Shown: positions 1,471 to 24,950 of the stretch, in pieces
Layout: every line of letters begins with the position of its first letter
Position numbering within the stretch: the stretch's first letter is position 1
Assembly: GCA_902532475.1 (NCBI GenBank)
Contig: CACAIE010000018.1
Location: forward strand, 1 to 36,483
Length of the DNA: 36,483 nucleotides
Direction: 5' to 3'
Source: an uncultured SAR116 cluster alpha proteobacterium
Lineage (GTDB): Bacteria > Pseudomonadota > Alphaproteobacteria > Puniceispirillales > GCA-002684695
The notes under the pieces: generated by a model
Told to the model about the DNA's origin: nothing
Databases searched by the model: none
The model's input: only the letters and a program-made list of their open reading frames with translations
Translations under genes and position numbers: made by a program

Positions 1471-1502
1471 CATTTCTCTAAATTGAATGTTTTAGAAGAT
1501 AA

Positions 1503-2360: not shown

Positions 2361-2361
2361 A

Positions 2362-5660: not shown

Positions 5661-6645
5661 TAAAAAAGAAAGTATGCCAGATGACATGATAGACGGGTTT
5701 GTTAGCGCCTATCCAAAAATAGTAAAAAAAGGGAGCCACCCTAGAGTTGTACGCAGAGTTTCAAAAAAACATAAAAGTAAAGTATCTTTAATAATTGGCA
5801 ATGGTTCAGGGCATGAGCCAATTGCAATGGGTTTTGTAGGTGAAGGCATTCTTGATGCCAACATAGTTGGAGACGTATTTACTGCTCCATCAGCAGACTT
5901 GATTTTTGAAGGCATAAAAGAGGCTTACAATGAAGCTGGTTCAATATTGTTAATTTCTAGGCACGAAGGCGATGTGATAAATGGAAATGCTGCATGTCTT
6001 CTAGCAGAGGAAGAAGGAATGGTCGTTAAACCTCTTCTAATGTACGATGACATTTCTTCAGCGCCTAAAGGACAAGAGGACGATAGACGCGGTGCTGCGG
6101 GAACCATTTTCATCTACAAGATCTTAGGAGCGGCATCTGAAGAAGGTTTGTCTATCGAAGACGTTTTTTCATTAGGTGAAAAAGTTCGCTCAAATACAAG
6201 AACTTTAGGTGTGGCTATTAAATCTGGTGTATCTCCCATAACAAATAAACCTATGTTTTCTTTGCCTGAAGATGAAGTTTTCATTGGAATGGGAGTTCAC
6301 GGTGAGCCTGGTGTCGCAAGAAAAAAACTAAGCTCTGTTAAAGACTTAGTCACATTCATGATGGATAAAATCCTTGAAGACAGAAATATCGGATCTCAAT
6401 CTAAAGTAATTACTTTAATTAACGGCATGGGAGGAACGACACTAATGGAATTATATATGGTTTACAATGAAGTGAACCATTACTTAAGTTATAAAAATAT
6501 TAAAGCAATATCCCCAATGATTGGTTCGTATTCAACCACCCAAGAAACAGCAGGGTTTTCAATTTCTATATTAGTTCCTGACGAACTAATGTTAAAATAT
6601 TGGGGCGAGACCCATAAAACTCCTGATTTTCCATTAATTATTTAA
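5644..6645 (+). CDS. dhaK: DhaK-family kinase subunit (substrate-binding)
   Basis: This 333-residue protein is the substrate-binding subunit that partners the preceding DhaL. The residues used by dihydroxyacetone kinases are all visible: His57 in GNGSGHEP, Asp110 in HEGDVING, and His219 in MGVHGEPG, which in E. coli DhaK holds the carbonyl of the substrate covalently. The stretch around Asp110 (SRHEGDVINGNAA) departs from the common NYTGD...NF form, hinting at a substrate other than dihydroxyacetone. DhaK relatives that act on erythrulose and other ketoses are known. Given the neighbouring isomerases and aldolase, I infer a ketose kinase making a ketose 1-phosphate. Confidence 0.86.
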   Translation: MKKLFNKKESMPDDMIDGFVSAYPKIVKKGSHPRVVRRVSKKHKSKVSLIIGNGSGHEPIAMGFVGEGILDANIVGDVFTAPSADLIFEGIKEAYNEAGSILLISRHEGDVINGNAACLLAEEEGMVVKPLLMYDDISSAPKGQEDDRRGAAGTIFIYKILGAASEEGLSIEDVFSLGEKVRSNTRTLGVAIKSGVSPITNKPMFSLPEDEVFIGMGVHGEPGVARKKLSSVKDLVTFMMDKILEDRNIGSQSKVITLINGMGGTTLMELYMVYNEVNHYLSYKNIKAISPMIGSYSTTQETAGFSISILVPDELMLKYWGETHKTPDFPLII

Positions 6646-6649
6646 TGTC

Positions 6650-7573
6650 ATGGAGCGCCAAATTACTAAACATTTAGATAAAAAGATATTTGGAATAGCT
6701 ATTGACGCTGGAAGCGGCCTCAAAAAAGCATTAAAGCAGGCTCGTGCCAGGGACGCTAAAGAAGATGACTTACTTACCTTTAAAAGATCTGTAATATCAA
6801 TTTTAGGTCAATCTGCCTCAACAGTTCTAATAGATTCAACCTTCGGCCCAGATCTTATAAAACACTTTCCTACTAACTGTTCTCCTATGATGGCTTATGA
6901 GGCTGACGTGTACCATATTTCAGACAAGGACAGGATAACTCAATTACCTGAAAATATAAATATTTCAGACTTTTCAAAACTTGGGTACAAAGTTTTGAAA
7001 TTTTTTATGTATTACGCTCCTAATGACGATAAAAAAATCAACAAAAAAAAGGAAAGTATAATTGAGAAAATTGGAAAGGATTGTGTTGACAATAATATTT
7101 CTTTTTTAATGGAGCCTTTGGTTTACGATCCTTTCAAAAAACCTGGTAGCCTAGATTACGCCTTTCTGAAACCAAAGTTAGTTGAAAGAGCTACTAAAGT
7201 TTTTTCAAATCCAAAGTTTAACGTTGATATTTTAAAAGTAGAAGTGCCCGTGGACTTATCTTTTGTTGAGGGTTTTGGCGATCCAATTATGAAACAAAGT
7301 AAAGCAGTAAAATGTTTTAAAGATGCCTCAGATGCTGCCGGCGATATACCACTAGTATATCTTAGTGCGGGTGTTTCATTTAATTGGTTTAAATCTTCCA
7401 TCAAAATGGCTATTGAAGCTAAAGTGGATTGCTCTGGGTTCATGTGTGGAAGGGCTGTCTGGTCAGAAGCAATTAAAGTTTTTGGTGATAGCGGAGAAGA
7501 TGCACTAATTGAATGGTTAAATAAAGTTGGTCTTAATAGATTAAATCAGCTAATTTCATTATTTGAAAAATAA
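6650..7573 (+). CDS. LacD/YihT-like class I aldolase
   Basis: This 307-residue protein resembles the tagatose-1,6-bisphosphate aldolase (LacD) and sulfofructose-phosphate aldolase (YihT) family. The Schiff-base lysine is probably Lys196 in ILKVEVPVD. An EPLVYD element at 155-160 and the C-terminal phosphate-binding SAGVSFNWF...GFMCGRAVW region also match. The usual N-terminal AxDxRGS is changed to AIDAGSGL. It should release DHAP and an aldehyde from a ketose phosphate. It starts four bases after the DhaK-like gene, with no clear ribosome binding site, so translational coupling is likely. The acceptor aldehyde cannot be told from the sequence. Confidence 0.75.
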   Translation: MERQITKHLDKKIFGIAIDAGSGLKKALKQARARDAKEDDLLTFKRSVISILGQSASTVLIDSTFGPDLIKHFPTNCSPMMAYEADVYHISDKDRITQLPENINISDFSKLGYKVLKFFMYYAPNDDKKINKKKESIIEKIGKDCVDNNISFLMEPLVYDPFKKPGSLDYAFLKPKLVERATKVFSNPKFNVDILKVEVPVDLSFVEGFGDPIMKQSKAVKCFKDASDAAGDIPLVYLSAGVSFNWFKSSIKMAIEAKVDCSGFMCGRAVWSEAIKVFGDSGEDALIEWLNKVGLNRLNQLISLFEK

Positions 7574-7587: not shown

Positions 7588-9006
7588 ATGAATACAAGAT
7601 TAAATATTTGTTTAGTAAAGACTTCCTTGCCCAGCTACTTCCCAGAAAAGCATAATGTTTGGAATAAGTGCTCAAATGGAGTTAAAAAAATTTGTGACGA
7701 AGTTGGGGTAAATTTTATAGAAATTTCTGAAATACCTATGAATTCGAATGAAGCGCATAAAGTATTAAAAAAGTGCAAGGATAACAATGCTGATTTCATT
7801 CTTGTTTTACATGGTGGATTTACTATGGGCGACGTTGCCCTCACCTTTGCAGCATCAAATTTCAGGCTAGGGTTTTGGTCTGTACCTGAACCAAAAAGAA
7901 TAGGTGACATACAATTAAATAATTTCGTTTCTTTAAATATGTCAATGTCAATTGCTCAAAAAGTGAGAGATGTCAAAAAATTTCCAATAAAATGGTTTCA
8001 TTGCAGCCCTGAGAGTAAAGACTTTCAGAAAAGACTTAAATTAACTTTAAAGTCACTTATAGCTCTTAAAACTTTATCAATAAGTAGAATTGGATTGATT
8101 GGTGGTTTGGCGATGACTTTTTACAACATGGAAGTTTCCATAACGGAGCTTAAGTCAAAATTAGGTATAGAAGTCTTCAATCACGACATACATGAGCTAA
8201 CGGATAGAATGTCACGACAACCAAAAGAAAAAGTTGGCATTGAAGTTTCCAAAATGCTTAAAGTAGCTCCATGTGACAATGTATCAAATGAGCAAATGGA
8301 ACTTTCCTCACGAGCTGCTCTATCACTTCGCGATATTGCAAACGAGAATAACTATAACGCTCTTGCAGTGAGTGACTGGCCTGCCCTTCAAGAGATTTCA
8401 AACATGCATCCAGGAGCAGCGTTTTCATGGCTGGAAGAAATAGATGAAATTCCTGTGGCTTCAGAAGGAGATGTTTTAGGAGCGGTAACTCAAATTATAG
8501 CAAAGTCGTTGACTGGGAAAGTGGGATATCTATTAGACATGACTGAACCTGATTTTGAAACTGGAAAACTGCTAATGTGGCATGGAGGGGGAGGTCCCCT
8601 GTACCTTGCTAATTCAGATGGTGTGAAATGGGTCAATCATCCCATGATTGGAAGAGGAACAAACGAAGGACCAATTTACGGAACAATTTCTGACCTCGTT
8701 TTCAAAGATGGACCCGTAACAGTTTTCAGGGTTTCCCAAAACGGAAATTCAATTTTTCAAATGACATCTGAAGTGAAAGGAAGAAACCCAAACGGTTTTA
8801 TAGGTTGCAGAGGCTGGTTAGAAAAATTTCAAATGGAAGATGAGAGCATTACTCTAAAGGATTTAGTGTCAACAGTTATGTATCACGGAATTGAGCATCA
8901 CTTTATACTAATACCTGGCAATCTTAGGGATGAATTGCATGAGTTAAGTGCCTGGTCTGGCATGCATAAGCTAGAACAGAAACATATGAAAAATTATGTT
9001 TTATAA
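7588..9006 (+). CDS. L-fucose/L-arabinose isomerase family protein
   Basis: This 472-residue cytosolic enzyme is of the L-fucose isomerase fold. Likely Mn ligands are Glu293 (ASEGDVLGA) and Asp317 (LLDMTE), spaced 24 residues apart as Glu337 and Asp361 are in E. coli FucI. A histidine comes from the C-terminal MYHGIEHH (433-438). A WHGGGGP loop at 331-337 stands where relatives have a WHCG-type loop. The family interconverts aldoses and ketoses. As the last gene of the operon it would supply the ketose for the DhaLK-type kinase. AATAGGG at 7576 serves as ribosome binding site. It ends eight bases before the convergent nucleoside hydrolase gene. Confidence 0.78.
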   Translation: MNTRLNICLVKTSLPSYFPEKHNVWNKCSNGVKKICDEVGVNFIEISEIPMNSNEAHKVLKKCKDNNADFILVLHGGFTMGDVALTFAASNFRLGFWSVPEPKRIGDIQLNNFVSLNMSMSIAQKVRDVKKFPIKWFHCSPESKDFQKRLKLTLKSLIALKTLSISRIGLIGGLAMTFYNMEVSITELKSKLGIEVFNHDIHELTDRMSRQPKEKVGIEVSKMLKVAPCDNVSNEQMELSSRAALSLRDIANENNYNALAVSDWPALQEISNMHPGAAFSWLEEIDEIPVASEGDVLGAVTQIIAKSLTGKVGYLLDMTEPDFETGKLLMWHGGGGPLYLANSDGVKWVNHPMIGRGTNEGPIYGTISDLVFKDGPVTVFRVSQNGNSIFQMTSEVKGRNPNGFIGCRGWLEKFQMEDESITLKDLVSTVMYHGIEHHFILIPGNLRDELHELSAWSGMHKLEQKHMKNYVL

Positions 9007-9014: not shown

Positions 9015-10115
9015 TCATAATTTATTTAGTTTTTCATAGAAATCTATGAAGATCTCATCTCGTCTTACGTCAAATGCTTCTCTCATCAGGTGCCTGTGAT
9101 CAGATTTTTCCCAAAGTAATTTATCATTTAAAACCGGTGAAGTCGTTAAAAAAGTTGGAACCCAATCAGGATTGATTAACCAAGCTATATTAATTATATC
9201 CCAAATAACCCAAGTTCTTCTGTATGTGTCATCAATAGCAAATTTCTTATGAAGAGGATTTTTTTCTGTATATAAATAATATAAATAATCTCCTATAGCA
9301 CCTTTTCCTTTAACAAATTTTTCCATTTCAGGCTCGGAGATCTTTAATTGTGCGCCCACATGGTATCCAGGCAAATATACATGTGGCACTCCACTATCAT
9401 ATATTAGCTTTGAAGAAATCGGATCCTGAACTAAATTCAATGAAGCACCATTGAAATGAGGGGAAAGTGAAGGATAGGCTGAAGTCCATATTACTACAAC
9501 ATCATTAATTATTTCAGGCGCCATTATTAGTGCAGAAGCAATATTTGTAGGGCACCCAATAGCAACGAGATAAAGCGGATCACTGCCGCTTTTTGCAAGA
9601 TCAATAATTAATTCAGAAGCGTCTGATTTAATTGGTCGATCTAATGACTTTAAGTAAGATGTTGAACCCCTGAATACTTTACCTTTAGACGGAATTGATA
9701 ACTTATCATAAACAGTTAAAATCTCCTGGTAACTTAGTTCCATCCCTTCATCTGTATTAACAAATTTTACTTCTTTGGCTTTAGCCCCCCTTTTGTGAAG
9801 TCTTTTAACCCACTCCAATGCGAAATTTGAAGGTGTCTCAGATATATTTTTCTCTATATTATTATTTTCTATATTTTCAAGATATTGTTCAGCTTCAACA
9901 ATTTCACGTTGATGATGAGCAAAAGAAAATGGTTCGGCTGTTACTGCCTCAATCTTTAACTTTTCTGGAGATAAAGCCGCCCAAGCAATTGCAAATTGAT
10001 CATCTATTTCATTGGCAGTATCTGTATCAATAATTACTCTAGTTAAGCCACTAGGATGCTCTAATTTTTCGATCATTTTATCCTTTGACAGCTTTGGAAA
10101 TTTTAGTTCTTTCAT
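9015..10115 (-). CDS. Inosine-uridine nucleoside hydrolase family protein
   Basis: This 366-residue protein carries the N-terminal metal-binding motif of nucleoside hydrolases in an extended form, IIDTDTANEIDD at 28-39. It also has a central AIGCPTNIASAL and NLVQDP, and a C-terminal WDIINIAWLINP near residue 325. In standard enzymes the last site reads HD; here Trp replaces the His. It is longer than the usual 310-320 residues. The family hydrolyses the N-glycosidic bond of ribonucleosides to base plus ribose, but this extended subgroup is less well defined. The start overlaps the GntR stop (ATGA), so the regulator probably controls this enzyme's substrate. Confidence 0.78.
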   Translation of the reverse strand: MKELKFPKLSKDKMIEKLEHPSGLTRVIIDTDTANEIDDQFAIAWAALSPEKLKIEAVTAEPFSFAHHQREIVEAEQYLENIENNNIEKNISETPSNFALEWVKRLHKRGAKAKEVKFVNTDEGMELSYQEILTVYDKLSIPSKGKVFRGSTSYLKSLDRPIKSDASELIIDLAKSGSDPLYLVAIGCPTNIASALIMAPEIINDVVVIWTSAYPSLSPHFNGASLNLVQDPISSKLIYDSGVPHVYLPGYHVGAQLKISEPEMEKFVKGKGAIGDYLYYLYTEKNPLHKKFAIDDTYRRTWVIWDIINIAWLINPDWVPTFLTTSPVLNDKLLWEKSDHRHLMREAFDVRRDEIFIDFYEKLNKL

Positions 10116-10879
10116 AATTTAATTTCTTGATCTAAAGACCTCTGCACTTTTGTTTGTTTAGATAAATTAAAACTCACTGTGTCATTGCGGTACACTTCTT
10201 CATGGAATACCGGCTTTCCTAGCTCATTAAATGCTGTGCAACCTAGTTTTAAAATCGGTTCTCCTGCCTTCATATTGAGAAGAGCAGCTACATCTTTATC
10301 AACTGACACTGGGCTGATATCCTCACAAGCAGCAGACCAATTCAATTTAAAGCGTTTACTTAATATTCTAAGAATTGACTGTCCAGGACCCTCCTCAGGG
10401 AAATCTTCTGGAGTTGCGTTTTGGATTAGATTAGAAGGTGCGTAAGTTATAACTAACATCCTAGGCTTTCCATTTACTATTCTAACTCTGGTTACTCTAG
10501 TAACATGGCTTGCTTCCAAAACCTCAGGTATTAAATCTTTAGTACTAGTATTGGGATCTAAATTGGTTATTGATATTAGCTTTGAACTTGGTTCGTGGCC
10601 AGCTCTTAACATTGCATCTGTAAATGATATCAAACAAGTATCCGATGCCGGTGATAATGTTAAAACTGTGTAACCGCTTCCCCTCCTACTTTCTACATAA
10701 CCATCTTTAACTAGCATGTCCAATGCATGACGAATTGTCACTCTACTCATATCGAACTGCTTAGCTAAATCTCCCTCTGTAGGCATCCTTGAACCAACAG
10801 GGTACCTGTCAGATTTAAGTCTATTAATTAAGGTGAAGTAAGCTTGTTCATATTTTGGCATATCATCAGTTATTTGCAT
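10112..10879 (-). CDS. GntR-family transcriptional regulator with UTRA domain (HutC subfamily)
   Basis: This 255-residue regulator has a winged helix-turn-helix at about residues 8-75 (PTEGDLAKQFDMSRVTIRHA is the recognition part, SRRGSGYTVL the wing). It is followed by a UTRA effector domain from about 90 to 245. Such proteins are usually repressors released by a small metabolite, often a sugar phosphate or amine. AAGGAG precedes the ATG at 10879. The gene lies 38 bp after the acyl-CoA synthetase and overlaps the nucleoside hydrolase by four bases. It is the only dedicated regulator in the window and may also control the adjacent sugar operon. Confidence 0.9.
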   Translation of the reverse strand: MQITDDMPKYEQAYFTLINRLKSDRYPVGSRMPTEGDLAKQFDMSRVTIRHALDMLVKDGYVESRRGSGYTVLTLSPASDTCLISFTDAMLRAGHEPSSKLISITNLDPNTSTKDLIPEVLEASHVTRVTRVRIVNGKPRMLVITYAPSNLIQNATPEDFPEEGPGQSILRILSKRFKLNWSAACEDISPVSVDKDVAALLNMKAGEPILKLGCTAFNELGKPVFHEEVYRNDTVSFNLSKQTKVQRSLDQEIKL

Positions 10880-10917: not shown

Positions 10918-12582
10918 TTAACTTTTTGCTTTTCTTTCTTCTCTTTCTCTAAGAACCCTCCTGTTAATTTTTCCTGAAGAGGTCATTCTAAAATTCTCTA
11001 CAAATTCAATTTCTCTCGGTGCTTTGTAAGCCGCCAAATTTTCTTTCACAAATGCTGTGATCTTTTTTGAAATAACGTTGTCTGCTTTATAATTTTTACG
11101 TAATTTAATAAAGGCCTTAACTATTGACCCTCTATCGGGGTCAGGTTTACCAATGACAGCAGCTTCAGCTACAGCATAGTGAGAAAGTAAAGAATCTTCT
11201 ATTTCTGTTGGCCCAATTCTAAATCCAGATGACTTTATCAAATCATCGGACCTACCCTTATACCAGAAGTAACCCTTTCTATCTCTAGACGCTAGATCAT
11301 GCGTTCTTAAATACGGTCCTAATTTCATTTCCTCTTCTTTGTCTTTATTGTTAAAATACCCTAAAAACCTCGTCGGGGAATCCGCAGTGGTTACAATTTC
11401 ACCTGTGCTACCGCAATCTACTGGATTAAGCTTTTCATCAACTAAAAACACTTTATGGCCGGGGTAAACTTTTCCCATAGAACCAGGTTTTCTTGGGAAC
11501 AATGCTTTGCAATTACCCACAAGATGATTTACTTCAGTCATGCCATAAAATTCATTGCAAATAACACCCAAACTATTTTCTGCCCATTCCAACGTTTCAC
11601 TAGCCAATGCCTCTCCGCCAGTACAGATTACCTTTAAGGATAAATTAAAATTCTCATGGGGATTTTCTATTTGTGCTAAACGCTTTATAGCTGTCGGCGC
11701 TAGAAAAGTGTGCGTTACCTTATGCCTCTCAATAAACTTATACGCCCATTCTGCATTGAACCTATCTTCCGAAGTGGCAATAGTTTTTCCGGCCATCCAT
11801 GCAGGAAACATCATATCCAACAACCCACCGACCCACGACCAATCTGAAGGAGACCAAAAAACTGAACCCTCTTCTTGCATGGAGAGATTAAAAAATAAAT
11901 TAATTGATGGTTTATAAGATGCTAAAACTCTGTGTCCGTGAAGGATGCCCTTTGGCTTTCCTGTCGATCCCGATGTATACATCAATAAGGCTGGGTCATT
12001 TGCTTTAGAGTAAAATGGTTTAAAATTATCATCTCTACTTAAGTACGCGCCCTCCAATGATATTTCATTATTTTTAGGTTCCCTTAAAATAATGTGCTTC
12101 AAATATGGAAATGCATTGCTTTTAATGTTTCTTAAGTTGCCCCAAACTTTGTTACTTGTTAAAATTACTTCCACTCTGCAATCGTTCATTGCGTGTTTGA
12201 GTGTTTCTGGACCATACAACTGAGAGAGAGTTACAGCGATGCCTCCGATTTTACATATAGCCATATGTGCAATAGTAGTATCGGGGTGCTGACCCGTATG
12301 CACAGCAATATTGTCTCCAAATCCATAACCTAAATGAGTCAATCTTATAGCTAAACCAGTAGCTAGTTTTTCTATTTCCCCAAAACTGAAAGTTTCAATT
12401 TCACCGTTATCCTTTTCATATATAATGGCTTTTTTATTTATATCTTCAGTATTCAAGTATCTGCCTAAGGTCATTTTATAAATATTTGCTTCGTAAGGAA
12501 TTTTAATCTTGACCTCATTATTTTCTCTTTCAAGACCAATGGCATCAAGTTCTATATCAGAAAGTTTTGAGAGATAATCCAT
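10918..12582 (-). CDS. AMP-forming acyl-CoA synthetase
   Basis: This 554-residue ligase activates a carboxylic acid to its CoA thioester through an acyl-adenylate. It shows the P-loop YTSGSTGKPKGI at 202-213, the EFYGMTE core motif, the hinge region YKGRSDDLIKSSGFRIGPTEIE and the C-terminal catalytic Lys538 in SSGKINR. Its features fit acetyl- or medium-chain acyl-CoA synthetase-like members of the ANL superfamily. The start overlaps the DUF35 stop by one base. In this operon it would make the acyl-CoA that the thiolase-fold protein then cleaves. The acid is unknown. Confidence 0.9.
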   Translation of the reverse strand: MDYLSKLSDIELDAIGLERENNEVKIKIPYEANIYKMTLGRYLNTEDINKKAIIYEKDNGEIETFSFGEIEKLATGLAIRLTHLGYGFGDNIAVHTGQHPDTTIAHMAICKIGGIAVTLSQLYGPETLKHAMNDCRVEVILTSNKVWGNLRNIKSNAFPYLKHIILREPKNNEISLEGAYLSRDDNFKPFYSKANDPALLMYTSGSTGKPKGILHGHRVLASYKPSINLFFNLSMQEEGSVFWSPSDWSWVGGLLDMMFPAWMAGKTIATSEDRFNAEWAYKFIERHKVTHTFLAPTAIKRLAQIENPHENFNLSLKVICTGGEALASETLEWAENSLGVICNEFYGMTEVNHLVGNCKALFPRKPGSMGKVYPGHKVFLVDEKLNPVDCGSTGEIVTTADSPTRFLGYFNNKDKEEEMKLGPYLRTHDLASRDRKGYFWYKGRSDDLIKSSGFRIGPTEIEDSLLSHYAVAEAAVIGKPDPDRGSIVKAFIKLRKNYKADNVISKKITAFVKENLAAYKAPREIEFVENFRMTSSGKINRRVLREREERKAKS

Positions 12583-12962
12583 TACTCATTTCCAGATTTA
12601 ATTGGTATTAAATTGAGACTTGGTTTCGAGGGATCACAACTGGAGATTTTCCCATTCATTTCATCTATCTTGAAGCCTTTAAGTCTAACAACTGCAGAAT
12701 TATCAGAACCTTCAAATTTAGCAATTGCAAAGTCACCGTCAACTCCAGATGTTTTAACTAAAATGTTGGCTTTTCCACTCAATTCAAACCATTCATTTTT
12801 TGAAGAGCTGCAATCGCAAATTCTTTGTGGTGGGAAAGAAGATTTTTCACATTGACTACATTTTAAAGCAATTGCCTTGCCCTCTAATAACCCACTAACC
12901 CACCTCGTCATTTTACCAAATGATAAAGTATAATTAAGATCTAATTTTTGTTTAATTATCAA
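12582..12962 (-). CDS. DUF35 OB-fold/zinc-ribbon protein, thiolase partner
   Basis: This 126-residue protein has an N-terminal rubredoxin-like zinc ribbon with Cys35, Cys38, Cys49 and Cys51, then an OB-fold (about 55-120). That is the DUF35 architecture. DUF35 proteins form complexes with thiolase-fold enzymes, as in archaeal acetoacetyl-CoA thiolase/HMG-CoA synthase complexes and in Ltp2 with the DUF35 domain of ChsH2. It overlaps the thiolase-like gene by four bases and the acyl-CoA synthetase by one. The C-terminal part ends early, soon after CDPSKPSLNLIP. Confidence 0.85.
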   Translation of the reverse strand: MIIKQKLDLNYTLSFGKMTRWVSGLLEGKAIALKCSQCEKSSFPPQRICDCSSSKNEWFELSGKANILVKTSGVDGDFAIAKFEGSDNSAVVRLKGFKIDEMNGKISSCDPSKPSLNLIPIKSGNE

Positions 12963-14122
12963 TTTATATTACTTTCAAGAATTGAGGTTGCAGAGGTTGT
13001 CCCTATACCACCATGCGTGTCTGCCAAGGCATATTTAGGTATATTATTGATTTGTAATTCATCATGGTATTCTCCCTCCAAGAGCATAGAGCATGTAGCT
13101 GTTTGGCCTACTCCTGTCGCTCCAACCGGTGCCCCTTGCCCCATTAAACCTCCAGATAGATTAATAGGCATTTCACCCTCTTTGTGAAATCTTCTATTTC
13201 TAAAATCCTTTAGAAAATTTGAAGACAATCCTAGGGCTTTGATAGCTTGAAACTCTGCTCCAGCATAAGCATCATAAAGCTCTGCTAATCCGATTTCACT
13301 TGGCTTGATGTCAGCCATTTTACAAGCATTTTTCATGGAAATTGTTTTTGAGTTAAATTCACCCATTTCCAATCTTGCACCCAAATTTACTCGATCATTC
13401 GCAGAACCAATTCCAATCACTTCTGGAGCAGTCTTTCGTTTACTAGGAATATAATTTTTATGAGATAAAATAATTGATGCAGCACCATCACTAAGAGGAG
13501 AACAATGAAGTCGGCGGTAAGGTGAAGAAATTATAGTAGAATTGAGTATCTCATCTTGAGAATGATTAATTTTTAGATGCGCTCCTGGATTTAAACAGGC
13601 GTTCTCCCTATTATTTATAGTTAAGTTTGCCAAATCATATTCATTTAAACCAGTTTCTGACATAAAAATTTGAATAGATAAAGCGTATAAAGCGGTTGCA
13701 GACACTCCATTCATACCGTCAGTCCATGCGTCAAAAGAGTAACTGTAGAGTTTCTTTATAGTTTCACTTGGCAACTGTGACGCAGAAGGATCAAACCCTA
13801 TAATTGCGACATGCTTGGAGGCTCCAGATAAAATTGATTTTACGCCTGCATGGACAGCTAATTGACCGGATGCCCCTCCTCCTTCAACCCTTAATGCTTC
13901 AATGTTAAATAGTCCTAAGTCGTCTGCGATCACTGACGCTGGATTTAGTTGTAAAGTAAAAAAATCACTTTCAGAGGAAACTATCAAGGTATCAATATCT
14001 CTTCTGTCTAAACTTGAAGTCTCTAGAGAAGATTCAAATGTCTCACTTACCCAATCACGAAAAGATGACCCATCTTTTCTACGATTAAATTGTGTTAAAT
14101 TATATCCTGTAACAAATGTCAT
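12959..14122 (-). CDS. Thiolase-fold (SCP-x/Ltp2-like) protein lacking canonical catalytic residues
   Basis: This 387-residue protein is thiolase-like across its length (for example CSPLSDGAAS at 207-216 and SGGLMGQGAPVGATG at 323-337). The nucleophilic Cys of thiolases falls at Gly83 in VEGGGASG. The GHP histidine is Ala331 (GAP), and the HDAF histidine is Tyr283 (ELYDAY). Claisen thiolysis is therefore improbable. Ltp2, a thiolase-fold retro-aldolase for steroid side chains, also lacks the Cys, uses Tyr residues and needs a DUF35 partner. The same pairing here suggests a retro-aldol lyase acting on a beta-hydroxyacyl-CoA. It is the first gene of the - strand operon. Confidence 0.8.
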   Translation of the reverse strand: MTFVTGYNLTQFNRRKDGSSFRDWVSETFESSLETSSLDRRDIDTLIVSSESDFFTLQLNPASVIADDLGLFNIEALRVEGGGASGQLAVHAGVKSILSGASKHVAIIGFDPSASQLPSETIKKLYSYSFDAWTDGMNGVSATALYALSIQIFMSETGLNEYDLANLTINNRENACLNPGAHLKINHSQDEILNSTIISSPYRRLHCSPLSDGAASIILSHKNYIPSKRKTAPEVIGIGSANDRVNLGARLEMGEFNSKTISMKNACKMADIKPSEIGLAELYDAYAGAEFQAIKALGLSSNFLKDFRNRRFHKEGEMPINLSGGLMGQGAPVGATGVGQTATCSMLLEGEYHDELQINNIPKYALADTHGGIGTTSATSILESNIN

Positions 14123-14172
14123 ATTGCTAAAAAAAGATTAAAATTTAAGTAAAAAATTATGACTTAACATAT

Positions 14173-14184
14173 TTGTCATTACAA
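14173..14184. promoter_or_regulatory. Candidate GntR-type operator
   Basis: TTGTCATTACAA contains the dyad TTGT-N4-ACAA, which resembles half-sites bound by HutC-subfamily GntR regulators. It lies in the 105-bp divergent region between the thiolase-like operon, which includes a GntR gene, and the sulfatase gene. It is a short motif and could arise by chance in AT-rich DNA. Confidence 0.25.
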
Positions 14185-14192
14185 GTTAATAC

Positions 14193-14198
14193 TATAAT
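14193..14198 (+). promoter_or_regulatory. Candidate -10 element of the sulfatase gene
   Basis: A perfect TATAAT at 14193-14198 would start transcription near 14205, leaving a leader of about 23 bases before the ATG at 14228. No good -35 is seen at 16-18 bases. The element touches the upstream in-frame ATG at 14198, which supports the later start. Confidence 0.35.
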
Positions 14199-14227
14199 TG
14201 TATATTTTATTTTCTTTTGAGATTTTA

Positions 14228-15766
14228 ATGAATATTATTTTAGTTTTAGTTGATAGCTTAAATAAAAATTGCTTGAAAATTTACAATCCAGATACAATTT
14301 GCAGAACACCAGAATTAGAAAAATTTGCTCAAAAATCATTAGTATTTGAAAATCATTATATTTCTAGTTTGCCTTGCATGCCTGCTCGAAGAGAGATTTT
14401 TGCAGGAAGAAAAGAATTTATGTGGCGCCCATGGGGGCCACTAGAAATATTTGACCCCAGGATGCCACGAATTATTCAATCCGCGGGATACAATACAGGT
14501 ATCGTAACGGACCATTACCATTATTGGGAGGAAACCTCAAACGGTTACATTCAAGGCTTTGCTTCAAGTAAATTTATCAGAGGTCATGAAACAGACTTCT
14601 GGAAAATGCACGACAACAGCGTAGTTCCTAAATGGGTGGAAAAAATGTCCGAGTTCAGGGCGTCTGAGCATATGAACCAATATTATGCTAACGTAAAAGA
14701 TTTCAAAGGTGAAGAAGACTTTTTCCCAGCCAAGACTTTCTCTGCCGCCACAGAATGGCTTGATGAAAATGCAAGAAATGGTAACTTTTTTCTCCATGTT
14801 GAATCTTTTGATGTACACGAACCCTTTCATGTTCCAGAGCCTTACGCTTCAATGTATACTGACGGAAGTAGCGACAACTTCAATATCTGGCCACCATACC
14901 AAATATATGATGATTTAGAAAAATTTATGAAACAAACAACTCCTGAGGAACTGGAATTCCTTGAATCCCAGTATATGGGGAAAACTACAATGGCTGACAA
15001 ATGGTTTGGCGTTTTATGCGAAAAGCTCGATGAATTGTCTTTGTGGGAGAATACTGCCGTCATATTTACTACTGACCATGGTCACGATTTAGGAATAAGA
15101 AAATCTTTTGGGAAACAATACCCTCACTATGACAGTCACTCTAATATACCCTTGCTTGTTTGGCACCCTGAATATCCGGGAAATGGAAATAGAGTTAGTG
15201 CGCTTACTCAAAATGTTGATTTATTTGCTACACTAATTGAAACTGCAGGCGCAAATATCCCAAAAGAAAATAGACACAGTGAAAGTTTTTTGCCAATCAT
15301 TAAAGATCCAAACCATAGCAAACGTGACGCCATACTCTATGGAACCTACGGGCAAGGAGTTTGTCTATCCGATGGAGAATGGACACTATTTTGCTCTCCT
15401 GTTAAAGGAAAGCCATTATTTAACTACTCAACAATGATTTTAAGGCCTTTGATCGTTGACAACCCAGTTGACGGAAGAGTTGGGGATATGCCTAACCAAC
15501 CTGTTGACCAGGGTTTTTTTGATAATTCCGTACCCTACCCTCTTTGGAAAATGCCTATAAAAATTGACCCCAGAACTTATGAGAATTTTTTATTTAATAG
15601 AATTGATGACCCCGATCAAAAGGAAAATCTTTGGAATGTTGAGATTAATAAAAGGAATGAATTATTATTATTAATGAGGACCTTATTAGACGAAGAAGGC
15701 TACCCCCCAGAACAATTGGAAAGACTAAATCTAACTGACGAAGCACTAAAAAAATTAAATTCTTAA
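14228..15766 (+). CDS. Cys-type (formylglycine) sulfatase, cytosolic
   Basis: This 512-residue sulfatase hydrolyses a sulfate ester. The modification motif CMPAR at 50-54 marks Cys50 as the residue oxidised to formylglycine. Metal-site residues include Asp9 near the N-terminus (VLVDS, with the usual second Asp replaced by Ser) and Asp283-His284 in TTDHGHD. I start at ATG 14228 because MNIILVLVD is the typical sulfatase N-terminus and an upstream in-frame ATG at 14198 touches a TATAAT. No signal peptide is present, so it acts in the cytosol on an imported sulfate ester. No maturase gene lies in the window. It is followed after 25 bp by an SDR that may oxidise the desulfated alcohol. Confidence 0.88.
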   Translation: MNIILVLVDSLNKNCLKIYNPDTICRTPELEKFAQKSLVFENHYISSLPCMPARREIFAGRKEFMWRPWGPLEIFDPRMPRIIQSAGYNTGIVTDHYHYWEETSNGYIQGFASSKFIRGHETDFWKMHDNSVVPKWVEKMSEFRASEHMNQYYANVKDFKGEEDFFPAKTFSAATEWLDENARNGNFFLHVESFDVHEPFHVPEPYASMYTDGSSDNFNIWPPYQIYDDLEKFMKQTTPEELEFLESQYMGKTTMADKWFGVLCEKLDELSLWENTAVIFTTDHGHDLGIRKSFGKQYPHYDSHSNIPLLVWHPEYPGNGNRVSALTQNVDLFATLIETAGANIPKENRHSESFLPIIKDPNHSKRDAILYGTYGQGVCLSDGEWTLFCSPVKGKPLFNYSTMILRPLIVDNPVDGRVGDMPNQPVDQGFFDNSVPYPLWKMPIKIDPRTYENFLFNRIDDPDQKENLWNVEINKRNELLLLMRTLLDEEGYPPEQLERLNLTDEALKKLNS

Positions 15767-15791
15767 TTAACCATTATTAAAGGAGAAAATC

Positions 15792-16547
15792 GTGAACCTG
15801 AATGGAAAGGTAGCTCTGGTTACAGGAGCTTCAAGAGGTATTGGTGAAGCCCTTGCTATAGGATTGGCAGAGCATGGAGCAGATATAGCTATATATGATC
15901 TTGAATCTGAAGAAAAAGGCTTACTGAATACGAAAAAACTGGTGGAGAATACGGGTCAAAGATGCTGGTCATATTTTCTTGATGTAGCAAGCAAACCTCA
16001 AATTACTGAGACAATCAATAAAACGCTCAGTGATACAGATTCAATCGACATCCTTGTTAATAACGCAGGAATACTAACGCCTTCCTCTCTTGAAGGATTG
16101 GACGAAAAGACTTGGGACGCTCATTTTGATGTTAATACTAAGGGGGTTTTTTTGATGTGTCAGTCTGTCCTACCGCATATGAGATCAAAAAAATCAGGCA
16201 GAATCATCAATATAGCCTCAATTGCAGGTAGACAGGGTTCACCCACTCAAGGACACTACGCTTCTACAAAGGCAGCAGTTATAACTCTTACAAGAGTTTT
16301 TGCCCAGGAGGTTGGAGAGGCTGGAATTACGGTTAATGCAATATGCCCTGGAATAATATTAACTGAAATGGGGAAGAATAACTTAGGGAGCGAAAAAGAA
16401 ATAAAACACTGGTCAAATGTTGCAGCATTAAAAAGATTAGGATATCCAAAAGACATTATAGGCCCAACTGTATTTTTCGCTTCAGATCTTTCAGACTTTG
16501 TAACAGGGCAGTCTATAAACGTTTGCGGAGGTATATATTTTCACTAA
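15792..16547 (+). CDS. Short-chain dehydrogenase/reductase, complete catalytic set
   Basis: This 251-residue SDR interconverts an alcohol and a carbonyl with NAD(P). It shows the cofactor motif TGASRGIG at 11-18, NNAG at 90-93, Asn115, catalytic Ser143, Tyr156 and Lys160 (YASTK), and the PG motif after the active site. It looks like the FabG/glucose-dehydrogenase group, ending CGGIYFH. It uses a GTG start at 15792 with AAAGGAG eight bases upstream. It follows the sulfatase by 25 bp and is probably cotranscribed with it. Its stop overlaps that of the opposing SDR gene. Confidence 0.9.
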   Translation: MNLNGKVALVTGASRGIGEALAIGLAEHGADIAIYDLESEEKGLLNTKKLVENTGQRCWSYFLDVASKPQITETINKTLSDTDSIDILVNNAGILTPSSLEGLDEKTWDAHFDVNTKGVFLMCQSVLPHMRSKKSGRIINIASIAGRQGSPTQGHYASTKAAVITLTRVFAQEVGEAGITVNAICPGIILTEMGKNNLGSEKEIKHWSNVAALKRLGYPKDIIGPTVFFASDLSDFVTGQSINVCGGIYFH

Positions 16548-17236
16548 AAACTCTCTACCCAAGGCCTGAGGTCTACTTCCCATGCCCACGCGCTCCTGTG
16601 CTGTTTGTGAAAATCTAAGTAAGTTTTTGCAATTTCATCAGGGTTCAAAAGACTGTCATTGGAGTCTTCATTCCCTCCAAAATCTTTAGATTTCGCAATT
16701 CCTCCATCGATCACAAAATGGCCAATGTGAATGTTTTGAGGATGCAACTCTCTTGCTAGAGCTTGAGCCAACCCCCTCAATCCAAACTTTCCCATTGCAA
16801 AAACAGACGAGTTAGCGAATCCTTTTACTCCTGCTGAAGCACCTGTAAAAAATAAACTTCCACTGCCTCTTTTTAGCATTCTCTTGGCTGATTGCTGTGC
16901 AACTAAAAAAGCGCCGTAACTAGTAATATCAACTGCTTTTTTTACAGCGACTGGGTCTAAATCAGTTATTGCGCCTCTCACTCTATTTGAGGGGTTGTAA
17001 ACTACTAAGTTGGGTGTTCCTACATCAGTATCTAATTGCTCAAATAAATTTTTAACTTCTTCAATTTTACTGACGTCGCATTGATATAAACTGGCATTAA
17101 TTTCTGAGGAAGCATCTTTTAATTTATTAATATTTCTTGAAGCTAAAGATACTTTCATTCCTTCACTAGAGCAAGCTCTTGCAATAGAAAAGCTTAACCC
17201 AAAACCAGCTCCAACAATTAAAACGCTTTCAGACAT
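16544..17236 (-). CDS. SDR-family protein with Phe in place of catalytic Tyr
   Basis: This 230-residue Rossmann protein has a glycine-rich cofactor loop VGAGFGLS at 8-15 and an NP in place of the NAG motif (VVYNPSN). Its active-site region is FTGASAG...SSVFAMGKFGLRG. Ser134 and Lys150 are present, but the catalytic Tyr position is Phe146. I recall other proteins with the FAxxKF(A/G)LRGLAQ signature having the same change, so it may define a subgroup rather than mark decay. The C-terminal half (IHIGHFVIDGGIA) is intact. The gene is alone on the - strand and divergent from tctC. Confidence 0.82.
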   Translation of the reverse strand: MSESVLIVGAGFGLSFSIARACSSEGMKVSLASRNINKLKDASSEINASLYQCDVSKIEEVKNLFEQLDTDVGTPNLVVYNPSNRVRGAITDLDPVAVKKAVDITSYGAFLVAQQSAKRMLKRGSGSLFFTGASAGVKGFANSSVFAMGKFGLRGLAQALARELHPQNIHIGHFVIDGGIAKSKDFGGNEDSNDSLLNPDEIAKTYLDFHKQHRSAWAWEVDLRPWVESF

Positions 17237-17477: not shown

Positions 17478-18440
17478 ATGAAGATAATATTTAAAATATT
17501 TTTAGCAGCAATTTTTAGTTTAGGACTATCTATTCAATCTTTTGCAGCTGAGTGTATTGCCCCAGCAAACCCTGGTGGTGGTTGGGACTTTACCTGTAGA
17601 GCAATTACTAAAATTATGCATGACATAGGAGCAGTAGACTCTCCTATCCAAGTCACAAATATGGCTGGTGGAGGTGGAGGCCTTGCATACACCCATGTGG
17701 TTAATGAAAGAAATTCTGATGATAACCTAATTGTAGCGGCATCTTCAGCAACTGCTACTCGTTTAGCGCAAAATAAATATTCTGGAATGACATCAGATCA
17801 AGTAAGGTTCTTAGGAGCTATTGGCGCTGATCCAGGCGTTATAGTAGTTGGTAAAGATTCACCTTATCAAAATTTAAATGAACTTCTTGACGCTGTCATT
17901 GCTGACCCTTCAAAGGTTGCTTTTGCTGGAGGTTCTGCTGCGGGTGGATTTGATCATCTAAAAGTTCTTATGGCTTTAGGTCGAAAAGGATTTAAAGACA
18001 TCAGAAAAGTGAAGTATATTGGTGTTGACGGTGATGCTGATGCCATCGCACAGACTGTGGGTGGATTTACTGCTGCCATGACTGGTGATATCTCAGGAGT
18101 AGTAGGCTTTATTAAATCTGGAGACGTAAGAGTGCTTGCCTCATTTACTGACGAAAGAATTCCTGGTTTTGAAAGTATACCAACTGCTAAAGAACAAGGC
18201 ATAGATGTGGTCGCTGTTAACTGGCGTGGACTTTACACTCCTAAGGGTGCATCTGAAGCTTCTTATAAGAAGTGGACAGAAGCACTTAGAAAGGTTGGAG
18301 ATTCACCAGAATGGGATAAGACTATGAAAGAAAGAGGCTTAGCTCCATTCAACAAAGTTGGTGGCAACTTCCAGTCTTATGTTGATCAAGTAATTGGTGA
18401 AGTTAGAGCTTTATCAAAAGAGATAGGCGTAATTCAGTAA
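17478..18440 (+). CDS. tctC: Tripartite tricarboxylate transporter binding protein TctC
   Basis: This 320-residue periplasmic receptor has a signal peptide (MKIIFKIF, hydrophobic core, cleavage near SFAAE at about residue 24). A TctC-family body follows, with the carboxylate-binding loop ANPGGGWDFTCR and a second glycine loop NMAGGGGGLAY. It captures a carboxylate for the TctAB membrane pair. GGAGG lies four bases before the ATG. The tctB gene starts 27 bp later. The TctC family is broad, covering citrate, tartrate, terephthalate and other acids, so the ligand is open. Confidence 0.92.
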   Translation: MKIIFKIFLAAIFSLGLSIQSFAAECIAPANPGGGWDFTCRAITKIMHDIGAVDSPIQVTNMAGGGGGLAYTHVVNERNSDDNLIVAASSATATRLAQNKYSGMTSDQVRFLGAIGADPGVIVVGKDSPYQNLNELLDAVIADPSKVAFAGGSAAGGFDHLKVLMALGRKGFKDIRKVKYIGVDGDADAIAQTVGGFTAAMTGDISGVVGFIKSGDVRVLASFTDERIPGFESIPTAKEQGIDVVAVNWRGLYTPKGASEASYKKWTEALRKVGDSPEWDKTMKERGLAPFNKVGGNFQSYVDQVIGEVRALSKEIGVIQ

Positions 18441-18466
18441 AGCTAAACTATTTACGGTTTTATTGA

Positions 18467-18904
18467 ATGTCAGACCGATTAATTGGAATAATAATAGCTT
18501 TGATGGCACTTGCATTTTTTGCAAGTGCCACTCAGTTAGAGGCACCATTTTTCTCTGACCCTGTTGGGCCAAAGTTATTCCCTTATTTTATCTCAATAAT
18601 AGCTTTTTTGGCTTCATTTAGAATGATAATCATGCCAGATGAAAAACCAACCTGGCCAGTTTTATCAACCTTTGCTAGTTTGGGAATAGCTATAATTGTA
18701 TTAGTCTTTTACGCTTATAGTTTGCGTCCACTCGGATTTTTAGTTCCAACAGCTTTATGCGCTAGTATTTTATCTTACCAGATAAGGCCAAAGTACATTA
18801 CTTCGTTAATTACAGGCATCTCTTTGTCTATTGGATTATTTATTATCTTTAAGTTTTTATTAGGATTGGGTTTATTCGCATTTCCTAGATGGATTTGGGG
18901 TTAA
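18467..18904 (+). CDS. tctB: Tripartite tricarboxylate transporter small membrane subunit TctB
   Basis: This 145-residue membrane protein has about four hydrophobic segments and the TctB arrangement (N-terminal helix, conserved DPVGPKLFPY stretch near residue 35). It partners TctA in sodium- or proton-driven uptake. The start lacks a clear ribosome binding site, suggesting low or coupled translation. A strong hairpin lies at 18504-18530, within its first 22 codons. The stop is two bases before the preferred tctA start. Confidence 0.88.
   Translation: MSDRLIGIIIALMALAFFASATQLEAPFFSDPVGPKLFPYFISIIAFLASFRMIIMPDEKPTWPVLSTFASLGIAIIVLVFYAYSLRPLGFLVPTALCASILSYQIRPKYITSLITGISLSIGLFIIFKFLLGLGLFAFPRWIWG
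18504..18530 (+). repeat. Perfect 11-bp hairpin inside the start of tctB
   Basis: The arms TGGCACTTGCA (18504-18514) and TGCAAGTGCCA (18520-18530) are exact complements with a loop of five T. The hairpin lies 64 bases after the tctC stop and 37 after the tctB start. No T-run follows the stem. It could shield the tctC message, slow tctB translation, or both. Confidence 0.7.
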
Positions 18905-18906
18905 TA

Positions 18907-20409
18907 ATGGAATTGTTTGCAAATTTATCATTAGGATTTTCAATAGCGTTAACCACAACAACACTAATGCTTGCTGTTATTGGTTGTATTTTAGGAACCA
19001 TGATAGGAGCTCTTCCTGGGCTTGGACCAACAAATGGAGTGGCAATATTAATACCTATTTCATTTACCTTAGGCCTGGACGCTACCCAGGCGCTAGTCTT
19101 AATGACGAGTGTCTATTACGGCGCCATGTATGGCGGTCGTATTTCTTCCATTCTATTAAATATTCCTGGGGATGAGCCTGCAGTAATGACAACTCTTGAT
19201 GGTTACCCAATGGCTAAAAATGGAAGGGCGGGTGACGCTTTAGTGTTATCTGGTTTTGCTTCTTTTGTAGGAGCGTTTTTAGCTACAATTGGTTTAATGT
19301 TACTTGCACCCATGTTGGCTCAGGTTGCATTTATGTTTGGTCCAGCTGAATATTTTGCACTATACCTTCTTGCCTTCTGTACTCTGGGTGGATTGGGATC
19401 AAACAATCAAGCCAAGGCTGCAATCTCTGTTTGTCTCGGCTTAGGAATTGCCATGATTGGAGTTGATAGCTCAACTGGAATGACTAGATTTACAGGTGGA
19501 AATCTCCATCTTTTCGATGGCATTGATTTCCTTGTAGCAATCGTTGGTTTATTTGCTATTACTGAAATATTTGTCTTTATAGAAAGTCACGGCAAAGAAA
19601 CAGCTATCGGTGTTAAATTAGAAAAAATATCAATCCCAATAAAAGAAATTGTTTATACTCGTTGGACAGTATTACGTGGATCATGCATTGGATTTGTGGC
19701 AGGCTTGTTACCTGGTGCGGGAGCTTCAATCGGAAGTTTTTTGGCGTACATGTCTGAAAAAGCAATCGTAAAAGACAACTCATCTTTTGGGAAGGGAGAC
19801 CCAAGAGGAGTAGCAGCTCCTGAAGCAGGAAATAACGCTGCGGCTGGCGGCGCATTAATTCCAATGCTGACATTAGGAATTCCAGGCTCAGGAACCACTG
19901 CGGTACTTCTTGCTTTGCTTATGACTCTAAATATTACCCCCGGACCTCTTTTATTTACTGAACGCCCGGAAGTTGTTTGGGGATTGATAGCCACTTTGTT
20001 GATTGCAAATGTTATGCTTTTAATACTTAATGTGCCATTGGTTAAGTTTTTTACAAAAATCCTTCAAGTTCCAGCTTCTATTTTATTGCCTGGCGTAACA
20101 ATGATTTCCTTTGTAGGCATTTACTCATTAACTGGCAGTCACTTTGACCTGTTGCTGATGATTGGATTTGGTGTCTTAGGATATTTTCTTAGAAAATTTA
20201 GCATCCCCTCTGTTCCTGTAATTCTAGGTATTTTACTTGGAGGTCACATGGAAGTAAGTCTGAGACGGGCAATGGTATTATCAGATGGAGACTGGACTTA
20301 CTTGCTGTCATCTCCAATATCAATTGGTCTTTGGGTGGCTGCAATTTTAGGCTTTGTTGCTCCCATTTTTCTTAAATCTATATTAAAAAAACCAACTCCC
20401 AATCAATAA
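18907..20409 (+). CDS. tctA: Tripartite tricarboxylate transporter large membrane subunit TctA
   Basis: This 500-residue protein has 10-12 hydrophobic helices and the two conserved TctA glycine-rich segments, GALPGLGPTNG near residue 35 and AGLLPGAGASIGS near 260. I choose ATG 18907 (MELFANLSLGFSIAL) over the in-frame ATG 18889, because it matches the usual family N-terminus and leaves no overlap with tctB. It completes the tctCBA operon. It ends five bases from the stop of the convergent ureohydrolase gene. Confidence 0.92.
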   Translation: MELFANLSLGFSIALTTTTLMLAVIGCILGTMIGALPGLGPTNGVAILIPISFTLGLDATQALVLMTSVYYGAMYGGRISSILLNIPGDEPAVMTTLDGYPMAKNGRAGDALVLSGFASFVGAFLATIGLMLLAPMLAQVAFMFGPAEYFALYLLAFCTLGGLGSNNQAKAAISVCLGLGIAMIGVDSSTGMTRFTGGNLHLFDGIDFLVAIVGLFAITEIFVFIESHGKETAIGVKLEKISIPIKEIVYTRWTVLRGSCIGFVAGLLPGAGASIGSFLAYMSEKAIVKDNSSFGKGDPRGVAAPEAGNNAAAGGALIPMLTLGIPGSGTTAVLLALLMTLNITPGPLLFTERPEVVWGLIATLLIANVMLLILNVPLVKFFTKILQVPASILLPGVTMISFVGIYSLTGSHFDLLLMIGFGVLGYFLRKFSIPSVPVILGILLGGHMEVSLRRAMVLSDGDWTYLLSSPISIGLWVAAILGFVAPIFLKSILKKPTPNQ

Positions 20410-21419: not shown

Positions 21420-21841
21420 ATTTTCGGCTCCCAACCTTTTTTAGCCATTTCAAAACCATCAAATGAGAAAGCAGGGGAAACAATGCAACTTACTAATGAC
21501 CATTTCCCAATAGACTTAGCTGACTGCCAAATCGACTTTGGAATAACTACTTGTAATTTTTCATTCAGTTTTAAATTTGGGCCAAGTTTTATTTCTTTAT
21601 TTATAGCTTCATTATCTGAGTAAGAAAGTATTAACGGGTCACCCAAGTGCCAAAGCCAGATTTCATCTGCGTCATTCACTCTATGCCAGTAAGACACCTC
21701 TCCTTCTTGAAGCAAGTAGTAAATCATGGATACAATTGACCTTTTGTGAGAGATAATATTTGATTGAAAAGTTTCCTTGTACCACCCGCCTTCCGGGTGA
21801 GGAGTTAAATCTAAATCTTCAATTATTTTTTTTGCATTCAT
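21416..21841 (-). CDS. DUF985 cupin protein
   Basis: This 141-residue RmlC-like cupin has the DUF985 signatures: LTPHPEGGWYKETF near residue 11, SMIYYLL, then HRVNDADEIWLWHLGDPL. No enzyme activity is firmly assigned to the family. His53 in YWHRVND, Glu59 (DEIW) and a later His are candidates for a ligand or metal site. It overlaps the ureohydrolase start by four bases and follows the racemase-family gene by 16 bp, so the three are probably one transcript and act on related compounds. Confidence 0.83.
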   Translation of the reverse strand: MNAKKIIEDLDLTPHPEGGWYKETFQSNIISHKRSIVSMIYYLLQEGEVSYWHRVNDADEIWLWHLGDPLILSYSDNEAINKEIKLGPNLKLNEKLQVVIPKSIWQSAKSIGKWSLVSCIVSPAFSFDGFEMAKKGWEPKI

Positions 21842-21857
21842 TTATAACTTCACCAAA

Positions 21858-24887: not shown

Positions 24888-24894
24888 TTTCACA

Positions 24895-24933: not shown

Positions 24934-24950
24934 TTTTAAAAGGTTTCTCA

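Follow-up and report, generated by a model that had tools for sequence, protein, structure and literature searches.

A Thiolase-Fold Protein without the Cys-His-His Residues, a Putative DUF35-Dependent Retro-Aldolase in a Predicted GntR Sugar Regulon of Mostly Marine Bacteria

Introduction

What can a protein with the thiolase fold do once it has lost the cysteine and both histidines of thiolase catalysis? The question is raised by a gene in a 36,483-nucleotide stretch of DNA from an uncultured SAR116 cluster alphaproteobacterium (contig CACAIE010000018.1 of assembly GCA_902532475.1; the whole stretch is called the window below). One possible answer lies with the DUF35-dependent retro-aldolases, for which the catalytic roles of Gly89 and Tyr302 of CtSal and of Tyr294 of TcLtp2 have been published; in Sal, the Gly contacts the β-hydroxyl of the substrate and Cys304 is the acid (PMC12329534). 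The combination of a CoA ligase with a thiolase/DUF35 retro-aldolase also exists in nature, in the breakdown of ibuprofen (PMC9195938). We describe here the active site of the window protein, its relatives and its gene neighborhood, which together suggest a related chemistry in a rather different metabolic setting.

The Thiolase-Fold Protein and Its Active Site

The gene is an open reading frame of 387 codons on the minus strand, at 12,959–14,122, where a preliminary description made from the DNA letters had placed it. That description also held that Gly83, Tyr283 and Ala331 take the places of the catalytic Cys and the two His, and both a direct reading of the translation and an alignment with solved relatives bear this out. 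In the alignment, Gly83 (codon 13,874–13,876, minus strand) falls on the nucleophilic Cys, so that CASG has become GASG, Tyr283 (13,274–13,276, minus) falls on the His of HDAF/HDCF, and Ala331 (13,130–13,132, minus) falls on that of GHP. The alignment can be trusted because the published residues of two characterized enzymes appear in the expected columns: Gly89, Tyr302, Cys304 and Gln352 of CtSal, after removal of a 24-residue offset, and Tyr294, His296 and Tyr344 of TcLtp2 in its published numbering. The Cys of the CxG loop has likewise been lost (DTHGG). The protein thus lacks the CxSG nucleophile, the HDAF/HDCF His and the GHP His of a Cys-dependent thiolase, while a Gly in place of the Cys and a Tyr in place of the HDAF His are the marks of the DUF35-dependent retro-aldolases of the Ltp2/Sal kind.

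The thiolase fold itself is predicted with good confidence (AF2 model, pLDDT 87.9, pTM 0.91), except for low confidence in the loop with FDAWTDGM (128–139). Pfam gives a match to Thiolase_C_1 over the cut-off (64.5 bits), and all NCBIfam thiolase models score below their curated cut-offs, the top one being PRK06064 (249 vs. 420 bits). A sequence search of solved structures finds archaeal thiolases as the nearest, and one of these is DUF35-linked.

The residues are no product of chance, and the gene is not a broken one, because the same residues are retained in other genera. A scan using one genome per species returned 36 orthologs outside the genus of the window (48–63% identity), mostly from marine Rhodobacterales and Rhizobiales, together with two MAGs labelled Granulosicoccaceae, and two more within the genus (74–75% identity); the Gly, Tyr and Ala are kept in all 36 of the out-of-genus orthologs. 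Residues 83, 283 and 331 are also invariant across a 33-row alignment, in which the invariant positions gather around the former active site (G82-G83-A84-S85-G86, Y283-D284 and Y286, with further stretches at G328-Q329-G330-A331-P332 and D368-T369-H370-G371-G372). Invariant polar stretches are found at E51-S52-D53, Q58-L59-N60-P61, F130-D131 and T134-D135-G136-M137. The only invariant Cys of this alignment is Cys207, in CSPLSDG. Canonical relatives such as 6esq have a Cys at this position too, and there is none in 7yvy and 4yzo, so Cys207 finds no support as a nucleophile that has moved. A catalytic Cys at a shifted position, which the preliminary description had named as one finding that would count against it, is therefore rejected.

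This pattern of conservation bears on two other readings of the protein. In the first, the thiolase-fold chain would be a catalytically dead subunit serving as a structural or regulatory partner for its DUF35 and synthetase neighbors; every canonical catalytic residue has indeed been lost, and DUF35 has a scaffolding role in some other complexes (PMC12329534). A dead scaffold, however, has no need of the surroundings of the former active site, which are among the most conserved residues of the family, and we regard this reading as very improbable. The second is a Cys-free thioester chemistry, such as the decarboxylation of a malonyl-CoA-like substrate, the hydrolysis of an acyl-CoA, or direct thiolysis. 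TbSLP, which has the Tyr and no nucleophilic Cys, decarboxylates malonyl-CoA very weakly, at 0.005 per s (PMC12329534), and in our alignment ST0096 (4yzo) carries a Ser in place of the Cys while keeping both the GHP His and the HD His. The window protein, though, has lost both His as well, and the invariance of its new Tyr speaks for a specific gained function and not for residual thioester chemistry; the authors of the Sal paper, moreover, argue that TbSLP is an aldolase (PMC12329534). Such a chemistry seems distinctly unlikely to us.

The DUF35 Subunit and the Acyl-CoA Synthetase

The pairing with a DUF35 protein that had been proposed for the window protein is real, even though Pfam is blind to the partner: a Pfam search of the 126-residue product of the adjoining gene (12,582–12,962, minus strand; TTG start, 4-nt overlap with the thiolase-fold gene) gave no match. 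The evidence comes from elsewhere. A profile of five sequences matches DUF35 proteins, in some cases weakly, among them those of 6esq, CtSal, PhlABC, Ltp2 and benzoylsuccinyl-CoA thiolase. The four Cys of the zinc ribbon (C35, C38, C49 and C51), which is accompanied by an OB-like fold, are invariant in 19 sequences. In a fold search with the predicted structure (pLDDT 85.5), all 21 matches at E ≤ 0.001 were DUF35-family or related zinc-ribbon proteins, mostly partners of thiolases, and the top match was the DUF35 of TcChsH2. We therefore consider the gene confirmed as that of a DUF35 subunit.

The next gene encodes an AMP-forming acyl-CoA synthetase of 554 residues (10,918–12,582, minus strand; Pfam PF00501/PF13193). 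The trio of thiolase-fold protein, DUF35 and synthetase is adjacent in 38 of 38 loci, so that the synthetase noted in the preliminary description is an invariable neighbor. The DUF35 protein, which has the expected fold and is likewise adjacent in all 38, may form a complex with the thiolase-fold chain.

Relation to Known Thiolases and Retro-Aldolases

The window protein is neither an Ltp2 nor a Sal: it belongs to a clade of its own, is nearer to archaeal thiolase in fold, and is without the second catalytic residue of either enzyme. In the tree, the family forms one clade (support 100/96) with a sister group (L049/L050), likewise Cys-less with Tyr, and with a Cys-less pair (L051/L053), and Ltp2, Sal and 4u4e form a separate clade (100/100). 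All Tyr-type enzymes lie on one side of a branch whose support is just 79/65, so that the type may have had one origin or two. The L051/L053 pair consists of Tyr-type thiolase-fold proteins (LYDPF) of distant alphaproteobacteria, and beside it, in another frame, lies a weaker thiolase-like match. Cys-less thiolases that do resemble Ltp2 and Sal (LYDAF) occur in other members of the order to which the window belongs (L038–L040).

TcLtp2-ChsH2(DUF35), the retro-aldolase of the steroid C3 side chain (PDB 6ok1), shares with the window protein the thiolase fold, the DUF35 partner, a Gly replacing the nucleophilic Cys, and a Tyr (Tyr294, equivalent to Tyr283) at the HDAF His. The general acid of Ltp2, its second Tyr (Tyr344), is replaced by Ala331, however, and its His296 by Ala285, so that the YDHF motif of Ltp2 reads YD[A/S]Y in the family; the identity in a structural alignment is 18%, and Ltp2 sits in a steroid operon, whereas the window protein lies in a predicted sugar regulon. 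A steroid pathway was rejected, as no steroid genes were seen near the thiolase-fold gene. CtSal-CtShy(DUF35), which acts on the C5 side chain of bile acids (PDB 9myr), matches the window protein in Gly89 (Gly83), Tyr302 (Tyr283), DUF35 partner and architecture. It differs in its catalytic Cys304 (motif YDCY), which is Ala285 in the window protein and Ala, Ser or Pro in the family, in its Gln352 (Ala331), in its separate clade, and in the fusion of its DUF35 to a MaoC hydratase, which the window DUF35 lacks. The precedent of Ltp2, which the preliminary description had invoked, therefore holds for the Gly and Tyr positions, which match Ltp2 and Sal alike, but does not extend to the identity of the protein. 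In the fold comparisons, the DUF35 model is best matched by the DUF35 of TcChsH2, and the thiolase-fold model is closer to the archaeal structures 6et9/6esq (TM 0.91) than to CtSal (0.83) or TcLtp2 (0.80). These archaeal relatives, the acetoacetyl-CoA thiolase/DUF35/HMG-CoA synthase complex (6esq), which also has a DUF35 partner, and the thiolase of P. furiosus (7yvy), are nearest in sequence and fold, and yet are true thiolases with the Cys, the HDAF/HDCF His and the GH His in place.

A further set for comparison is IpfDE, in which IpfE is a DUF35 protein. With the CoA ligase IpfF of the ibuprofen-CoA pathway, it makes up a similar set of CoA ligase and thiolase-fold/DUF35 retro-aldolase, but one with an aromatic substrate, a dioxygenase step and no sugar genes (PMC9195938).

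Judged from these alignments, the family appears to be a third version of the active site, with the Gly and Tyr kept and both known second catalytic residues replaced (Ala285 and Ala331). The mechanism of Ltp2 or Sal cannot be transferred to it, because their second catalytic residue is missing. Asp368 and His370 (codon 13,013–13,015, minus strand) are common to the family and its sister clade and are found in no other member of the compared set; for this reason the former CxG loop, in which both are invariant, offers the best candidates for a replacement proton donor.

The sister clade is informative in another way. Its loci combine synthetase, thiolase-fold and DUF35 genes with an acyl-CoA dehydrogenase, an enoyl-CoA hydratase and a TRAP transporter, and the dehydrogenase and hydratase give the order expected ahead of a retro-aldol cut, which supports retro-aldol chemistry. 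One such locus (L079:227-11182) carries synthetase, thiolase-fold protein, DUF35, TRAP transporter, a second synthetase, enoyl-CoA hydratase and acyl-CoA dehydrogenase, and is an uncharacterized acid pathway.

The Gene Neighborhood

On the plus strand, the window begins with an ABC importer of the PotABCD/YnjB type (184–4,223), made up of a binding protein (184–1,425), two permeases (1,503–2,360 and 2,362–3,183) and an ATPase (3,180–4,223). It is followed on the same strand by a ketose 3-epimerase family protein resembling D-tagatose/D-psicose 3-epimerase (4,264–5,097), a DhaL-like kinase subunit (Dak2; 5,097–5,660), a DhaK-like subunit (Dak1; 5,644–6,645) with its GMGVHGEPG segment present, a LacD/DeoC-type aldolase of the tagatose-1,6-bisphosphate aldolase family (6,650–7,573), and a sugar isomerase-like protein distantly of the L-fucose isomerase/SftI type (7,588–9,006). 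The last scores 102 bits against the sulfoquinovose isomerase SftI model (NCBIfam NF048012), whose cut-off is 700, and a PDB sequence search with it gave no match. An enzyme matching the inosine-uridine nucleoside hydrolase family (9,015–10,115) and a GntR/UTRA regulator (10,112–10,879), both on the minus strand, lie between these genes and the synthetase. An Rfam search of the window gave no match.

Much of this neighborhood travels with the thiolase-fold gene. Among the 38 loci, several of which are cut at their edges, the SftI/L-fucose isomerase-like protein is found in 35, GntR in 34, the LacD-type aldolase in 29, DhaK in 23 and the nucleoside hydrolase in 21. A LacD ortholog is also present in nine of nine tested genomes that bear the cluster, including those where it is not adjacent; there it adjoins the epimerase, DhaKL and the ABC importer, and of the five stretches that were read, three also have GntR and nucleoside hydrolase. 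Three plasmid-borne islands, in Marinovum algicola, Parasedimentitalea marina and Paracoccus seriniphilus, hold the whole set: MFS, thiolase-fold protein, DUF35, synthetase, epimerase, DhaL, DhaK, LacD, (ALDH), GntR, isomerase, ABC importer and nucleoside hydrolase, with a hydrolase ortholog of 54% identity in one of them. The genes of the islands bear generic names (“thiolase family protein”, “hypothetical protein”), and the isomerase ortholog of M. algicola is annotated “L-fucose isomerase”.

Several genes were considered for the set and rejected. GH51 arabinofuranosidase-like and PNP/UDP phosphorylase-like genes, pentofuranoside-cleaving extras of some genomes, are additions and not replacements for the nucleoside hydrolase, since the genomes with them also have that enzyme. 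ALDH is not a core step: its ortholog was missing in 10 of the 11 cluster-bearing genomes searched, most of them picked for having no ALDH nearby. The sulfatase and two SDR genes that adjoin the thiolase gene (14,198–17,236) are conserved within the genus only, their synteny being seen in two relatives, G001 and G003.

A few other features of the region may be recorded. A second, divergent SftI-like isomerase lies beside the ABC operon at L102:72-518 and L104:101-1357, in genomes that also have the isomerase beside the thiolase gene; this copy is nearer to SftI (150 bits) than the window protein is. Farther along the window are a tripartite tricarboxylate transporter TctCBA (17,478–20,409), in whose place G001 has a TctCBA set that clearly differs, as if swapped; consecutive arginase-family, Cupin_5 and arylmalonate-decarboxylase-like genes (20,415–22,607), syntenic in G003; and genes that by sequence resemble sulfate adenylyltransferase, a membrane protein and the β and α subunits of APS reductase (23,715–28,058), which suggests sulfite oxidation.

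A Shared Operator

A conserved palindromic site, AA(C/T)TTGTAnnnACAAAT, precedes the thiolase gene. In the window it reads AACTTGTAATGACAAATA (14,170–14,187, minus strand), 48 bp upstream of the gene, in an intergenic region shared with the start of the sulfatase. A matrix was built solely from the sites upstream of the thiolase gene; this site is the one that it scores highest in the window, at 24.0 bits, with a runner-up of 11.3 bits. A weak operator-like site before the ABC operon, AATTTGTAAGTATTAATC (49–66, minus strand), scores 7.5 bits, and the equivalent position in a relative, L080, scores 15.9 bits.

The same matrix finds sites before other units. They precede the epimerase-kinase-aldolase unit in 14 of 14 group-2 loci (L022, L023, L025–L036), the ABC operon in L011/L105 and L080, the PNP-ABC-epimerase-DhaKL-LacD operon in L103, and gntR-nh in L102/L104. 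The three plasmid islands each have their strongest matches at the starts of three units, MFS-thiolase, epimerase-kinase-aldolase and ABC-hydrolase. Shuffled sequences of 36 loci gave seven matches above 11 bits in total. Since the sites upstream of the thiolase gene yield a matrix that also picks out sites ahead of the other units and has few matches in shuffled loci, the best reading of these sequences is that the thiolase-fold set, the sugar genes and the transporter form one GntR regulon, with the GntR/UTRA protein as the presumed binder of the operator. Four loci have no gntR nearby: L012 and L021 retain the operator, and their genomes have gntR elsewhere (L102 and L104); in L002 and L004, no strong operator was found before the thiolase gene. 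The short pathway of acid activation and carbon–carbon cleavage that had been proposed for the locus thus keeps its synthetase, which is always adjacent, but does not stand alone.

The Proposed Reaction and Pathway

The total and conserved loss of the thiolase residues and the match of Gly83/Tyr283 to CtSal and TcLtp2 favor, as the best reading, a protein that probably works like a DUF35-dependent retro-aldolase. That the thiolase-fold protein and DUF35 act as a CoA-dependent retro-aldolase within a regulon for the catabolism of pentofuranosides (nucleoside-like) is, in our view, somewhat favored overall. The adjacent synthetase would turn a hydroxylated acid into its CoA thioester; Tyr283 would take the β-hydroxyl proton, with the hydroxyl placed against the backbone of Gly83; and scission of the Cα–Cβ bond would release an aldehyde or ketone and leave an acyl-CoA enolate in the GG oxyanion loop. 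The enolate would be re-protonated by a group other than the Tyr344 of Ltp2 or the Cys304 of Sal, with His370 and Gln329 as the best candidates. What has been shown is the sequences and their conservation, the identity of the DUF35 protein, the clustering and the common operator; the reaction, its proton donor, the substrate and the order of steps are what we infer from the residues and gene content.

For the rest of the regulon, a plausible order is ABC import, cleavage of the N-glycosidic bond by the nucleoside hydrolase, isomerization, C3 epimerization, phosphorylation by DhaKL, and cleavage by LacD into DHAP and an aldehyde, a sequence like that of the DHAP shunt; the CoA synthetase and thiolase-fold/DUF35 pair would process an acid fragment. 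The DHAP shunt for 5′-deoxynucleosides (nucleosidase, kinase, isomerase and aldolase Ald2) likewise involves nucleoside cleavage, aldose–ketose isomerization, phosphorylation, and aldol cleavage to DHAP and an aldehyde (PMC12632272). The regulon differs in its unrelated enzymes (SftI-like, DhaKL, LacD and 3-epimerase in analogous steps, with no MtnK, MtnA or class II Ald2), in isomerization presumably before phosphorylation, and in the added CoA synthetase and thiolase-fold/DUF35 pair.

It is worth pointing out one difficulty with the retro-aldolase reading. The chemistry of ketopentoses or ketohexoses, leading to DHAP and glycolaldehyde or glyceraldehyde, yields no obvious β-hydroxyacyl-CoA for a retro-aldol cut, and the acid may for that reason come from the aglycone or another branch. 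It could be (a) the LacD-derived aldehyde after oxidation, (b) the sugar oxidized before isomerization, or (c) the aglycone. Option (b) may be compared with the deoxyribonate pathway of Klebsiella michiganensis, in which a sugar acid is CoA-activated and a thiolase then cleaves a carbon–carbon bond; that pathway, however, uses a β-hydroxyacyl-CoA dehydrogenase and a thiolase cutting the 3-keto intermediate, and DUF35 is not mentioned (PMC6365646). Of the branched or hydroxylated acid that had been suggested, “branched” is only one option. Apiose, deoxyribonate, methylthioadenosine and arsenosugar were considered as substrates, and none is supported; a literature search gave no link.

As aldolases are reversible, the complex might also run as a carboligase of the aldol or Claisen type, in which an acyl-CoA enolate is joined to an aldehyde or ketone derived from the sugar half; the removal of a toxic aldehyde would be one use. 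The regulon yields acyl-CoA through its synthetase and probably an aldehyde as the LacD product, the dedicated ALDH lies outside the core, and C-acylating DUF35/thiolase complexes such as PhlABC and MucABC exist. An importer, a hydrolase and a kinase in one regulon look catabolic, however, there is no downstream user for a condensed acyl-CoA, and the dehydrogenase and hydratase of the sister clade favor cleavage; we consider a carboligase unlikely. Returning to the retro-aldolase, a fuller version of the proposal can be put forward more tentatively, as a possibility to be entertained: that a third active-site solution, Tyr283 with an acid of the His370/Gln329 type, acts on a hydrophilic sugar-derived acyl-CoA, in an undescribed, partly plasmid-borne and mostly marine regulon degrading nucleoside-like pentofuranosides to DHAP, acyl-CoA and a carbonyl compound.

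Conclusions

The earlier interpretation of this locus was right in kind and too narrow in scope. The metabolic setting, an unstudied gene set for sugar breakdown in mostly marine bacteria, would be new for retro-aldolases of the thiolase-fold kind. Steroids or an aromatic drug are the substrates of the characterized thiolase-fold aldolases in the papers discussed here; the presence of a conserved family in a sugar/nucleoside regulon would carry this type of enzyme into carbohydrate chemistry, and the Tyr283-type family would represent a new pairing of catalytic residues. In mostly marine bacteria, about a dozen linked genes that currently go by “thiolase family protein”, “hypothetical protein” or “sugar phosphate isomerase” would gain a function. 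Their co-regulation offers a direct route to it: once the inducer is found, the substrate should follow.
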